The position numbers and the translations under genes are program-made. The notes under the pieces were generated by a model. That model saw only the letters and a list, made by a program, of their open reading frames with translations. It searched no databases and was not told where the DNA came from. A stretch of 47,380 nt of DNA from the IMG/VR virus record IMGVR_UViG_3300018083_000045, positions 1 through 47,380 of that record; one strand, written 5' to 3'. Of this stretch, positions 31,245 through 42,919 are shown piece after piece. The number at the start of each line of letters is the position of its first letter. Position 1 is the stretch's first letter. The DNA is from a virus.

Positions 31245-31417
31245 GGTGGCTCCTTCGAAGAGATACTACCACCCGCATCGTCGACGATGCCGACAAATTG
31301 CCGGATCGCCAGGAGAGCCGCGCGCAGGTTGCGATTTTCACGGCGGGCCTTAGAGAGTTCCCTTTCGAGAAATTCGATATGTGCGCTCTGGACGGAGGCG
31401 GCGTTTCGGACGCTCAT
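31196..31417 (-). CDS. small coiled-coil protein, 73 aa
   Basis: ATG 31417 overlaps the preceding stop by 4 nt (ATGA). A Leu/Glu/Arg heptad-like stretch (AHIEFLERELSKARRENRNL) is followed by a hydrophobic helix and a basic tail PPRKK. The frame continues upstream to 31612 only as shadow of the zinc-ribbon gene. Role unknown. Confidence 0.65.
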   Translation of the reverse strand: MSVRNAASVQSAHIEFLERELSKARRENRNLRAALLAIRQFVGIVDDAGGSISSKEPPCAADPTPSTKPPRKK

Positions 31418-31950
31418 AGGAACTTCGCCTTCCCGCACGGCCCGCACCATTTCATCTGCCCGCACGGCTCGCCGCACTCGCGGCACTGGTTCACCGGGAC
31501 GAACGGGTACGGCTCCTCGTAGATCAAAGGCCCCACGAGCCGTTCGATGTGCCGTTGGGCCTCCCGGCGCGATTTGGCTTGCGTCCAGAGTTCCCCGGGC
31601 CGGCGGAAACACCAGCCGGTGCCCTCCAGGCGGCGGATCTCGAAGCCGCGGTAGTAGGACTTATCGTCCGGGTCTTCGTGCTTGGCGATCGCCCGTTGAT
31701 ATGCCAAATCAATCAACGCAGTAAACTGAGCGTCTTTGAGGGCCTGATCGCGCCGCTTGCGCGCCGAGCAGGACAGGCAGAAGATCTTGCCATCGGCGAT
31801 CACACGGTGGCGCTTGCGCCCGCACTCGGGGCACGTCTCATAGGCAAAAACGCCGGGATTGCCGAACTGGACCGGTACGCTGTCGGCCGGAACGATCTCC
31901 TCCGGTTTGATCCCCAGCGCCTTCAGGAACTCCCTGTCGGTGCGGGTCAT
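31414..31950 (-). CDS. double zinc-ribbon protein, 178 aa
   Basis: ATG 31950, one nucleotide after the upstream stop. The N-terminal knuckle is CPECGRKRHRVIADGKIFCL then SC (about 40-61). The C-terminal knuckle is CRECGEPCGQMKWCGPCG (about 157-174). Between them is a basic helical domain with RRLEGTGWCFRRPGELWTQA. The Arg/Lys-rich sequence and two knuckles suggest nucleic-acid binding, but no family is recognised. It lies in the leading part of the virion operon, before terL. Confidence 0.75.
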   Translation of the reverse strand: MTRTDREFLKALGIKPEEIVPADSVPVQFGNPGVFAYETCPECGRKRHRVIADGKIFCLSCSARKRRDQALKDAQFTALIDLAYQRAIAKHEDPDDKSYYRGFEIRRLEGTGWCFRRPGELWTQAKSRREAQRHIERLVGPLIYEEPYPFVPVNQCRECGEPCGQMKWCGPCGKAKFL

Positions 31951-31951
31951 C

Positions 31952-32311
31952 TTAATTGGCCCGCGCCTTTTCCTTGAACGCCTGCGCCTTTTCCATGTTC
32001 GCCTGGGCGTGTTTGGCCAGTCTGGCCATCTCGTCGATCTTCTCGCGGATCTGCTTTTCCACGATGATGTACGCCGCGAAAGTCTCGTCGTACGGCACTT
32101 GGCGCACGATCTGGCCGGCCTTGTCGACCAGCGTGGCCGTGATCGACAGCAGACTCAGCGCCTCGTCGACAGACCTGCAATCGGTGATCATCAGCGTCAT
32201 CATCTCGCTGATATGCTTGAACCCGTTGGCCACCAGGCCGACCAGGATCAGCGCGTCACTGTGCGACAGGTCCAATAACACCCGGACCCGCGCCTTCTCA
32301 TCTGTTGCCAT
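31952..32311 (-). CDS. helical protein, first gene of the virion operon, 119 aa
   Basis: I start at ATG 32311 with GTCGAGGTGAAT upstream. The longer frame to 32509 is an antisense and leader artefact. The first 80 residues form a Leu/Asp-rich helical domain (RVLLDLSHSDALILVGLVAN, MMTLMITDCRSVDEALSLLS). The rest is a charged helix (KQIREKIDEMARLAKHAQAN). Function unknown. Its ribosome-binding site is the 3' arm of a perfect 11-bp inverted repeat in its own leader, so translation is probably controlled. Confidence 0.75.
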   Translation of the reverse strand: MATDEKARVRVLLDLSHSDALILVGLVANGFKHISEMMTLMITDCRSVDEALSLLSITATLVDKAGQIVRQVPYDETFAAYIIVEKQIREKIDEMARLAKHAQANMEKAQAFKEKARAN

Positions 32312-32312
32312 A

Positions 32313-32409
32313 TTCACCTCGACTCCAAATTTCACCTTCCGCTTGCCAGAACGGGATGAGTGGCGCGGCACGTTGGCGGCACGCCAGCGCCACTCGACGT
32401 CGAGGTGAA
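32313..32409 (-). promoter_or_regulatory. leader RNA able to sequester the ribosome-binding site
   Basis: Read on the minus strand, TTCACCTCGAC (32409-32399) is perfectly complementary to GTCGAGGTGAA (32323-32313), which holds the Shine-Dalgarno site of the gene at 32311. Between them is a nested hairpin: GAGTGGCGC/GCGCCACTC arms (32395-32387 and 32366-32358) with an inner TGGCG/CGCCA pair. The 5' arm can alternatively pair within CTCGACGTCGAG (32394-32405), a perfect 12-bp palindrome, which would free the site. The predicted transcription start lies just upstream of the 5' arm. Confidence 0.65.
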
Positions 32410-32420
32410 GCGACACCCAA

Positions 32421-32442
32421 AGCGTATCACGTTTTGCGCAAA
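32421..32442 (-). promoter_or_regulatory. palindrome plus TACGCT box upstream of the virion operon
   Basis: On the minus strand TTTGCGCAAAA (plus 32432-32442) is followed 5 nt later by TACGCT (plus 32421-32426). It overlaps the end of the HNH gene and points toward the gene at 32311. The same pair of elements recurs at 33029, 36413 and 36587. The box is in the place of a -10 element; no separate -35 is visible, so the palindrome may bind an activator or a phage-specific factor. Confidence 0.55.
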
Positions 32443-32939
32443 GACGGCCTTCTATTGTTCGCCTGCTGCTTTGCCGTGGCCCATCTGACGTTGCCGGGCC
32501 GGTAGCCATCGTTGTTGTCCGGGTAGCGATCTATCGAGTGTTTGGAAGACGGTCTGGGGCCTACGTAGGCGTAGAACGATTCAAAACTCGCTCGCCATTC
32601 CGGACAGATGGTTATGCCTCTTCCGCCGTAATCAGCGTAGTTCCGGTCATTGGGATTGGTGCAGCGCTGGATCATGGAGCCCCAAACGTAATATTCCGGA
32701 ACCTCTCCCAACCTTTTGGGAAGCTCAGGACTGTGATGACGTTGCCGACCACTCCCCGGCAGGCAGCCGCACGATTTGGGCGATCCGTAGTGAAAGGCGT
32801 CCAACTGGACGATTTTTATGTTGCCGCACTCGCACTGACACTTCAGCATTCTGTTGTTGCCAATGCGAGGAAGTTCGCAAATTGCGGTCATCCGGCCGTT
32901 TTTGTCGCCGGGTTGTACGAAGATAGTTCTTGGTCGCAC
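32427..32939 (-). CDS. HNH-type endonuclease, 170 aa
   Basis: GTG 32939 with AAGGAGG 5 nt upstream. The N-terminal zinc-binding part has CQCECG (34-39) and CGC (57-59). The C-terminal part has YVWGSMIQRCTNPNDRNYAD, YGGRGITICPEW (104-115), SIDRYPDNNDGYRPGNVRWA and Q-x-x-N-N-R-R. This is the pattern of the free-standing phage HNH family that cuts DNA and often behaves as a homing endonuclease. Some phages need an HNH protein near terminase for packaging, so either role is possible. It is transcribed on its own, upstream of the virion operon. Confidence 0.85.
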   Translation of the reverse strand: MRPRTIFVQPGDKNGRMTAICELPRIGNNRMLKCQCECGNIKIVQLDAFHYGSPKSCGCLPGSGRQRHHSPELPKRLGEVPEYYVWGSMIQRCTNPNDRNYADYGGRGITICPEWRASFESFYAYVGPRPSSKHSIDRYPDNNDGYRPGNVRWATAKQQANNRRPSLRKT

Positions 32940-33028
32940 AGGGCCCTCCTTGGCTCTTTGCTACTTGGCCTGCACCGTTAGTAGCGGTGCGGGCCTCCCC
33001 GATTCTAATCCAAAAACCCCTTGCACGG

Positions 33029-33049
33029 TTTTGCGCAAAAGGGTACGCT
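33029..33049 (+). promoter_or_regulatory. palindrome TTTTGCGCAAAA plus TACGCT box, divergent region
   Basis: A perfect 12-bp palindrome (33029-33040), then GGG and TACGCT (33044-33049), directed toward the plus operon that starts at 33135. It lies between that operon and the HNH gene transcribed the other way. A separate inverted repeat (GCCTGCACCG/CGGTGCGGGC, about 32969-32995) lies on the HNH side. Confidence 0.55.
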
Positions 33050-33134
33050 CAGGATTGGATGGGGGCGCGGTGGGAGCCGGTCGACGAAGGAACGGCTTCT
33101 CATCAGACCCGCGCTTTCATCCGACTGAAGGCGT

Positions 33135-33362
33135 ATGAGCGAACATTGCCCCGGCTGCCGTAACTCGGATCCCACGCCGCCAGGCGTCGATCCGCTCGGC
33201 GTCATGCGGAAGCCGTTCGGCTTCTGCTTACGGTGTCAGAAAGACGAGCAGTATTGCGAGTGCGACGAGCCCCTCTTGGAGCCTCAGAACCCCAGTCACG
33301 GGACGATGTCGAAGACGATGGAGCATATCGGGCTTTGGCAGTGGAAAGCGATGAAGAAATGA
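33135..33362 (+). CDS. small cysteine-rich protein, 75 aa
   Basis: ATG 33135 with GAAGG upstream; first gene of the short plus-strand operon. Cysteines are arranged as C-P-G-C near the N-terminus, then CLRCQKDEQYCEC (about 31-43), a likely zinc-binding knuckle. The C-terminus is polar. The stop overlaps the next start (ATGA). No family recognised. Confidence 0.7.
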   Translation: MSEHCPGCRNSDPTPPGVDPLGVMRKPFGFCLRCQKDEQYCECDEPLLEPQNPSHGTMSKTMEHIGLWQWKAMKK

Positions 33363-36400: not shown

Positions 36401-36424
36401 AGTGTAAGTTAGTTTTGCGCAAAA
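36401..36424 (-). promoter_or_regulatory. palindrome plus TACACT box upstream of the minus mini-operon
   Basis: TTTTGCGCAAAA (36413-36424, perfect 12-bp palindrome) followed on the minus strand by CTAACT and TACACT (plus 36401-36406). Same architecture as at 32421 and 33029. Confidence 0.55.
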
Positions 36425-37043
36425 CGGCAAGTGGACTATTCCGGCGGCGCTCCAGTGAAAATAGTCCAGCGTCTACGAGTACGCCCTTACCCCTGGACTG
36501 GACCGGGATCCCCAAAAACACGAATGCCCCGGTCTTGAGTGATAGACCAGGGCACCCGTGCGTTAAAATGTTCACCGGACGCCCACAGCGTATCACATCT
36601 TTATCCCTTTGCGCAAAATATTTTCCACTTGCGCTCCGGCCGCCTCCAGGCGCAAAATGGGAATCGTTAAAATGGACACCGCGGCTGAATCCCCAAATCG
36701 AGCGCGCCAGATCGGCTCTGCGCTTCTCGGAGCAAGGCCAGCGTTGTATACGGTCTCCCCGACCCGCTCCCCGTGGCGGTCGGCTCTCTTACCTCAAAGC
36801 GGGACGGCTCCGATCGTCGAACTCAGCGCCTCTGCAATACCAAACACCGGGGTGAATAACCCGTGGGATCCTGAGTTCGGGCTGCTACAGCACGAGGAAA
36901 CGCCTCAAAACGACTATCCTCAAGATTGCAACGAAGTTAAGAGCAATCCGAAACTGTAGCCTCGGGGCCAAATACGCCCCCCAACTCGGCCCGCCGCGAA
37001 ACAACAGGAGCGTAGTCCCGTGCGGGGGATCATAGGGGGGCCT
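36425..37043. other. non-coding control region rich in inverted and direct repeats
   Basis: About 620 nt without a credible gene. It contains an inverted repeat TGGACTATT/AATAGTCCA (36432-36440, 36460-36468). It also contains a nested pair CCCTGG...GACCGGG / CCCCGGTC...CCAGGG (36491-36552) and a direct repeat CGTTAAAATGnnCACCG (36561-36577 and 36665-36681). Another palindrome/box element lies at 36587-36618. The right half (36690-37043) has no structure I can name. Open frames here (36375-36596 minus, 36609-36959 plus) have poor codon bias. A control or replication region is possible. Confidence 0.5.
36587..36618 (-). promoter_or_regulatory. distal copy of the palindrome/TACGCT element
   Basis: Minus strand: TTTTGCGCAAA (plus 36608-36618), 15 nt, then GATACGCT (box at plus 36587-36592). 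The gap is longer than at the other copies. If active it would give the gene at 36378 a second, 200-nt leader that includes the nested hairpins at 36432-36552. Confidence 0.45.
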
Positions 37044-42372: not shown

Positions 42373-42618
42373 GTGAGGACGAGGTGGTTAGAGGTAGCGG
42401 CGTTGGCCGTGGCGGCGCTTGGGTTCATGGCGGCGGGTTGGGCGGCGGCGACCGCACGTTGGGCTCCTGGCGGGCCCTGCGATGACCGGGGAGAGCGTCT
42501 GGCGTGGAGCCAGGAGCTATGCTCGACGGACGCCGAGTGCGCCGTGCTGGAGGTCCGTCTGACGGAGCTTGGGTGGATACCGCCTGAGCCCATGTTCAGC
42601 GGCGACCGGCGGCGGTAG
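42373..42618 (+). CDS. small membrane-anchored protein, 81 aa
   Basis: GTG 42373, two bases after the previous stop. Residues about 6-27 (LEVAALAVAALGFMAAGWAA) form one transmembrane helix or uncleaved signal anchor. The rest is polar with three cysteines (PCDD, LCSTDAEC), suggesting an extracytoplasmic domain. A perfect terminator follows 20 nt after the stop. Function unknown. Confidence 0.65.
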   Translation: MRTRWLEVAALAVAALGFMAAGWAAATARWAPGGPCDDRGERLAWSQELCSTDAECAVLEVRLTELGWIPPEPMFSGDRRR

Positions 42619-42638
42619 GATCGGCGGCGGCGGGATCG

Positions 42639-42665
42639 GGGGAGCCTTCGGGCTCCCCTTTTTTT
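42639..42665 (+). terminator. intrinsic terminator
   Basis: GGGGAGCC, loop TTCG, GGCTCCCC, then TTTTTTT: a perfect 8-bp stem with a stable UUCG tetraloop and a seven-U tract. It ends the operon that includes the DUF3768 gene. Confidence 0.93.
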
Positions 42666-42739
42666 GTGCCTGGAGCCCGCTGGCCGGGCCGGGGGGACCG
42701 GCGGCCGGGATCGGTGAGCGGGCCCGCTGGCGGTGCCGT

Positions 42740-42793
42740 GGCGGGCCGGTGGCGACCGGCCTAGGCTCTGGCGCTATACGGCGGGCCGGTGGC
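42740..42793. repeat. two direct copies of GGCGGGCCGGTGGC
   Basis: Copies at 42740-42753 and 42780-42793, exactly 40 bp apart, in a very GC-rich stretch between the terminator and the next promoter. Function unknown; they may be compositional. Confidence 0.5.
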
Positions 42794-42886
42794 CCGGTGC
42801 CGGCCGCTTTCCGGGCCGGGGCCAGCTCGCGCCAAGGTGCGACCGCCAGGTCGCGCCCGCGGGGCCTCGAGTTGGGGCGGGCGTCC

Positions 42887-42919
42887 GACAGGCGGGTGAC
42901 AGGCGGGTGACAGGCGGCT
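42887..42919. repeat. tandem repeat, 3 x 11 bp (GACAGGCGGGT)
   Basis: Two perfect units and a third with one change (GACAGGCGGCT), 7 bp upstream of a TATAAT box. Spaced one helical turn apart, they could bind a regulator on one face of the DNA. Confidence 0.7.

Follow-up and report, generated by a model that had tools for sequence, protein, structure and literature searches.

The virion genes of the uncultured tailed phage IMGVR_UViG_3300018083_000045 are preceded, on the minus strand, by a leader that is almost certainly a conserved RNA structure. In the mature mRNA, the 5' end of this leader very probably clamps the Shine-Dalgarno (SD) sequence and the start codon of the first gene, and translational repression is its probable function. 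As in other phage leaders that sequester a ribosome-binding site, SD and start codon are paired in the predicted fold, and this pairing is conserved in relatives. The window, meaning the whole stretch of DNA analyzed here, is 47,380 nucleotides long.

Gene neighborhood and reach of the leader

The name virion operon is fair because the long minus-strand gene run downstream of the leader encodes the large terminase (phrog_2) and, as a weak match, a major head protein. Its first gene (gene 1, 31952 to 32311, minus strand; ATG at 32311 to 32309, which belongs to the clamp) encodes a three-helix protein of 119 amino acids, for which PHROG and Pfam searches returned no match and a fold search no significant match. 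Gene 2 (31414 to 31950, minus strand) begins at the gene 1 stop codon without an SD of its own, and an ATG overlapping the gene 1 stop (TAATG or TGATG) occurs in the relatives L012, L006, L008, L009, L011, and L013. Gene 2 is probably translationally coupled to gene 1. Since an SD (AAGGAG) precedes gene 3 but none precedes gene 2, control by the leader most likely extends to genes 1 and 2 rather than to all virion genes. The first-pass annotation of this DNA had described an RNA switch for the late operon; exclusive folds are indeed predicted, but the scope was too broad, as the leader sits on gene 1 and gene 3 is separately provided with an SD. An HNH endonuclease gene (32427 to 32939, minus strand; phrog_374, E = 7e-54) is located upstream of the leader and has the same orientation. 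This insertion is unique to the window phage, as its relatives carry no HNH gene there.

Conservation among relatives

A terminase search recovered phages with 81 to 90% identical terminases, which gave six more distinct leaders, so that seven were compared (window, L012, L006, L008, L009, L011, and L013). Despite this terminase identity, gene 1 of the relatives is merely 21 to 29% identical. The leaders themselves are mostly scrambled, with GTCG, CTTCACCTCGA, CGCCAA, GGTG, and the SD kept. Each leader starts with GTCG(A)CTTCACCTCGA, in which both GTCG and CTTCACCTCGA are invariant (7/7). MAFFT alone misaligned the 3' end; the alignment used here was N-padded by hand around the fold with the SD closed (OFF fold), which biases pair counts towards that fold.

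A covariance model search of the window and relatives found a single match per genome, always at the virion operon (E of 8e-17 or better; next best, 0.13). As the model was trained on the same sequences, this result speaks for the absence of extra copies. Rescans of IMG/VR with terminase and gene 2 profiles returned the same contigs and no added relatives. In GTDB genomes, only remote terminases (23 to 31%) and no credible leader were found, and in phage GenBank records there was no DNA match to the region, no match to gene 1, and no terminase reaching 60%. Where it overlaps the window, contig IMGVR_3300044742 is identical in sequence and so uninformative. Four pattern hits (L020, L026, L027, and L052) were unlike the leader outside the pattern and were taken as chance. 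Rfam 15 at the gathering threshold gave no match for the window or the six relatives, and positions 32290 to 33160 gave nothing in Rfam up to E = 1. No account of such a leader was found in the literature searched.

The 5' end is predicted to clamp the SD and start codon

The first-pass annotation had noted a 5' arm exactly complementary over 11 bases to the gene 1 ribosome site, with a nested hairpin between the two. Both features are present on the minus strand: TTCACCTCGAC (32409 to 32399) is the exact complement of GTCGAGGTGAA (32323 to 32313), the arms lie 75 bases apart, and a perfect 9-base arm pair (32358 to 32366 with 32387 to 32395) is nested between them. On its own, the 11-base arm pair is not beyond chance, since the window contains six perfect inverted repeats of at least 11 bases within 120 bases, compared with a mean of 2.4 and a maximum of 6 in 60 Markov-1 sequences.

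From 32414 through the start codon (32311), the minus strand reads GUCGCUUCACCUCGAC-GUC-GAGUGGC...CGCCAA...GCCACUC-...-AGGUGAA-...-GAGGUGAA-UA-UGGC. In the unforced minimum-energy folds of all seven leaders, the first ~13 bases, within the 5'-terminal arm GUCGCUUCACCUCGAC (32399 to 32414), pair with the SD and start codon region, enclosing a large stem (stem B) and a second, smaller hairpin. The SD of gene 1 is GAGGTGAA (32313 to 32320), and in the window the preceding GTC lengthens the helix to 11 pairs (32313 to 32323). The window leader folds at -54.2 kcal/mol (z = -4.15), a stability equaled in 0 of 200 shuffles and by none of 1,970 GC-matched 109-base windows; across the seven leaders, z ranged from -2.9 to -6.4, with 0 of 200 shuffles as stable in each. 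The arm:SD pairing probability was 0.89 to 0.995. The earlier proposal of a ribosome site hidden by the 5' end of the mRNA is thereby upheld as a conserved prediction (7/7). In the comparison it had suggested, folding with and without the 5' arm, the mean SD unpaired probability was 0.003 to 0.09 with the arm free to pair and 0.31 to 0.85 with the arm held unpaired (0.04 and 0.85, respectively, in the window).

All 56 cells of the clamp core are paired in the hand alignment, and the core is invariant save for one A-to-G change that keeps a U-G pair. There are no double-sided changes and hence no covariation signal, so covariation in the clamp can speak neither for nor against it. GAGGTGA(A) often serves as a ribosome site in the window phage, so a 5' end fixed as anti-SD-like would match this SD as a matter of course, and the SD strand of the clamp is under separate constraint. 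The outermost clamp pairs are weaker in L013, which has an additional A in the arm and a GUGGAA start.

Covariation strongly backs the enclosed stem B (32358 to 32395, minus strand), in which all seven aligned pairs are formed (49 of 49 cells) and five have changed on both sides. Overall, 99.2% of cells were paired in the hand alignment built around the OFF fold, compared with 37 to 59% in slid controls, and the covariation score of 0.291 was equaled in 0 of 500 shuffles. The first-pass annotation had looked to covariation in homologues for a decision; stem B covaries, whereas the clamp is invariant and in this respect uninformative. Support for the clamp therefore consists of its invariance, energy, and position. 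Amid the scrambled stem, the apical loop CGCCAA (32373 to 32378) is identical in all seven leaders, and the chances that it is a factor-binding site appear evenly balanced. Downstream of stem B, all seven leaders read AUCCCG or similar rather than the U run of an intrinsic terminator or attenuator.

The predicted 5' end of the transcript falls on the arm. A putative -10-like box (TACGCT, 32421 to 32426, minus strand) stands at the same spacing to the leader start in 7/7. Among the leaders, the hexamers read TACGCT, TAGAGT, or TATCGT, and the conserved GTCG follows 6 bases after them (5 in L006). The transcript would thus begin at 32414, the first base of the arm. An earlier claim that transcription starts just ahead of the arm gains support from this comparison of GTCG positions.

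An upstream SD-like copy as an alternative partner of the arm

In the first-pass annotation, the ON fold was based on a palindrome, CTCGACGTCGAG, which is present in the window. However, it is shared only with the closest relative, L012; the other leaders read CTCGACATCGAG, CTCGACATTGAG, CTCGACATCCGAG, CTCGACATTGGCC, or CTCGATGAGG, and the palindrome was rejected as the ON fold. The more general claim of mutually exclusive folds is supported in another form, as the arm can pair either with the SD or with a second SD-like copy upstream of it, AGGTGAA (the decoy; 32331 to 32337, minus strand). Its GGTG is invariant (7/7), it lies 7 to 16 bases upstream of the real SD in every leader, and it forms 6 to 7 bp with the arm in each. 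The arm:decoy helix is 93.9% paired across the leaders, in the hand alignment built around the OFF fold, and the decoy match has a p value of 0.01 to 0.05 per sequence, the sequences being related. In equilibrium folding of transcript prefixes, the decoy was the majority partner of the arm over some transcript lengths in all seven leaders (84 to 95 in the window), at a stage when the SD has yet to be transcribed. In the full-length RNA, the arm:decoy fold lies 2 to 16 kcal/mol above the clamp. A further option for the arm is a self-contained 5' hairpin (-3.7 kcal/mol; -2.3 in L013). Being conserved, decoy pairing is a better candidate for the ON fold than the palindrome. The order of folds is predicted from equilibrium computation on prefixes, not from kinetics, and a transient ON state via the decoy seems plausible, if slightly doubtful on balance.

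Possible modes of action

Whether the leader represses translation of gene 1, and probably of gene 2 by coupling, as a cis-acting RNA with a possible transient ON state and a loop-binding factor is, in our estimate, an even call. Transcription would begin at 32414, and at equilibrium the first ~13 bases would lie on the SD and start codon, the OFF state predicted in all seven folds. With less certainty, the nascent arm may first be held in a 5' hairpin (GUCG/CGAC, with the anti-SD UUCACC in the loop), then move to the upstream AGGUGAA copy, leaving the true SD briefly free, and finally shift to the SD and close it. Only fresh transcripts would then be translated, following the principle of the MS2 maturation-gene leader, and the invariant loop would be the probable binding site of a factor that tips the balance. 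That translation is timed by RNA synthesis in this way, with a short ON window and a phage factor resetting the leader through CGCCAA, is a speculative proposal and rather unlikely to hold in every step.

The same OFF clamp could be relieved by a factor acting in trans rather than by kinetics. A phage or host protein, or a small RNA, on the CGCCAA loop or the arm might free the SD at a late stage of infection, or a protein of the virion operon might lock it as feedback. An invariant CGCCAA (7/7) amid a stem with compensatory changes has the look of a recognized loop, and the OFF fold lies 2 to 16 kcal/mol below the arm:decoy fold, in most leaders a large gap for a switch that opens unaided. 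However, gene 1 encodes a three-helix protein without a recognizable RNA-binding fold, and no candidate factor was found; we regard control in trans as a serious contender, though somewhat unlikely. The clamp might alternatively protect the mRNA, with a paired triphosphate 5' end resisting decay and ribosomes entering via the second SD-like copy as a standby site. In its favor, six of the seven folds have the 5'-most base paired, all leaders carry an SD-like GGTG 7 to 16 bases upstream of the real SD, and tisB is a known example of a sequestered site whose translation depends on standby (PMC7708055). Any 5' hairpin would suffice for protection, however, and the match of the arm to SD and start codon would not be needed, so this explanation appears improbable.

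A switch like that of T4 gene e, for which the precedent is established (PMC3014915), would keep a long transcript OFF, while a late promoter within the leader yields ON transcripts without the arm. Yet the only conserved blocks between arm and SD are the loop, CC, and GGTG, the alignment revealed no promoter-like box by eye, and the predicted start falls on the first arm base in 7/7; we consider this arrangement very improbable. Finally, the arms could be a DNA-level inverted repeat (an operator or looping site) or a chance repeat, as a lone perfect 11-base repeat is within chance expectation. Against this stand the invariance of the arm, the common fold, and the double-sided changes in stem B over seven diverged leaders, and such an origin is scarcely credible.

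Relation to known systems

Sequestration of the SD is already a known principle. The present leader departs from the known cases in having its arm at the predicted first nucleotide of a DNA-phage virion transcript, a clamp that includes the start codon, a second SD-like copy that is conserved, and a loop that is invariant. In phage T4, the ribosome sites of e, soc, 49, and I-TevI are locked in mRNA helices, and gene e is switched by late promoters whose transcripts lack the 5' strand (PMC3014915). The leader resembles these cases in belonging to a double-stranded DNA phage with SD and/or AUG in an mRNA helix. In contrast to them, its arm is the predicted 5' end itself and encloses a large covarying stem, with no sign of a late promoter. 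PMC6733600 describes the 5' leader of the MS2 maturation gene, after van Meerten et al. 2001, as a cloverleaf that is transiently open. The present leader is like it in that the SD is closed in the final (here predicted) fold; the transient fold that permits translation of nascent MS2 RNA has a proposed counterpart here. Unlike MS2, the present case concerns a double-stranded DNA tailed phage and a promoter-made transcript, with the arm at the first base, the start codon clamped, and a second SD copy; no sequence kinship is claimed. The SD of AapA3 is held shut by transient (metastable) hairpins and finally locked by the 3' end (PMC6733600). Like AapA3 and the hok type I toxin mRNAs, the leader contains anti-SD segments and is predicted to undergo successive exclusive pairings during transcription, but no toxin, antisense RNA, or role of the 3' end is known for it. 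Its position at the start of an operon would also be compatible with an antiterminator RNA of the HK022 put type, which binds polymerase and allows terminator readthrough.

The leader would represent an RNA regulator that Rfam does not contain and that a group of uncultured tailed phages has conserved ahead of its virion genes. If the proposed transient state is real, the MS2-type principle of translating only nascent RNA would extend to a DNA phage, and the leader would be a compact natural timer of translation in which the decoy copy is a new, testable part.

Operator palindrome and other structured elements

Upstream of the leader promoter lies the palindrome TTTGCGCAAA (32433 to 32442, minus strand), with further copies at 33030, 36414, and 36608. 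The window thus contains four exact copies, and five sites at one mismatch or fewer, compared with 1.07 expected. The palindrome recurs at promoters of relatives (loci L053 to L061); in L054, L055, and L058, the promoter that it flanks belongs to a small helix-turn-helix gene. It is a probable operator of a phage regulator, and the product of the small helix-turn-helix gene is probably the regulator that binds it; the gene was not found in the window. In relatives, the leader promoter faces a divergent promoter, and the two share one TTTGCGCAAA-like palindrome between them. In the window, the HNH gene lies between two copies (32433 and 33030), and each divergent promoter keeps one.

The divergent operon has a structured leader of its own (33050 to 33140, plus strand; GGGCGCGGUG...UCAUCAGACCCGCGC), with counterparts in L012, L008, and L009 (z of -1.6 to -5.1) and none in L006 and L013. 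At 36423 to 36617 on the minus strand, a promoter-like TTTGCGCAAA ... TGATACGCTGTGGGCG is followed by GTGCCCTGGTCTATCACTCAAGACCGGGGCATTCGTGTTTTTGGGG, which might be a terminator or a small RNA, and similar text occurs in L057 and L060. The strongest predicted folding within the window is found at 42600 to 42890 on the plus strand, where G+C content is ~80%.
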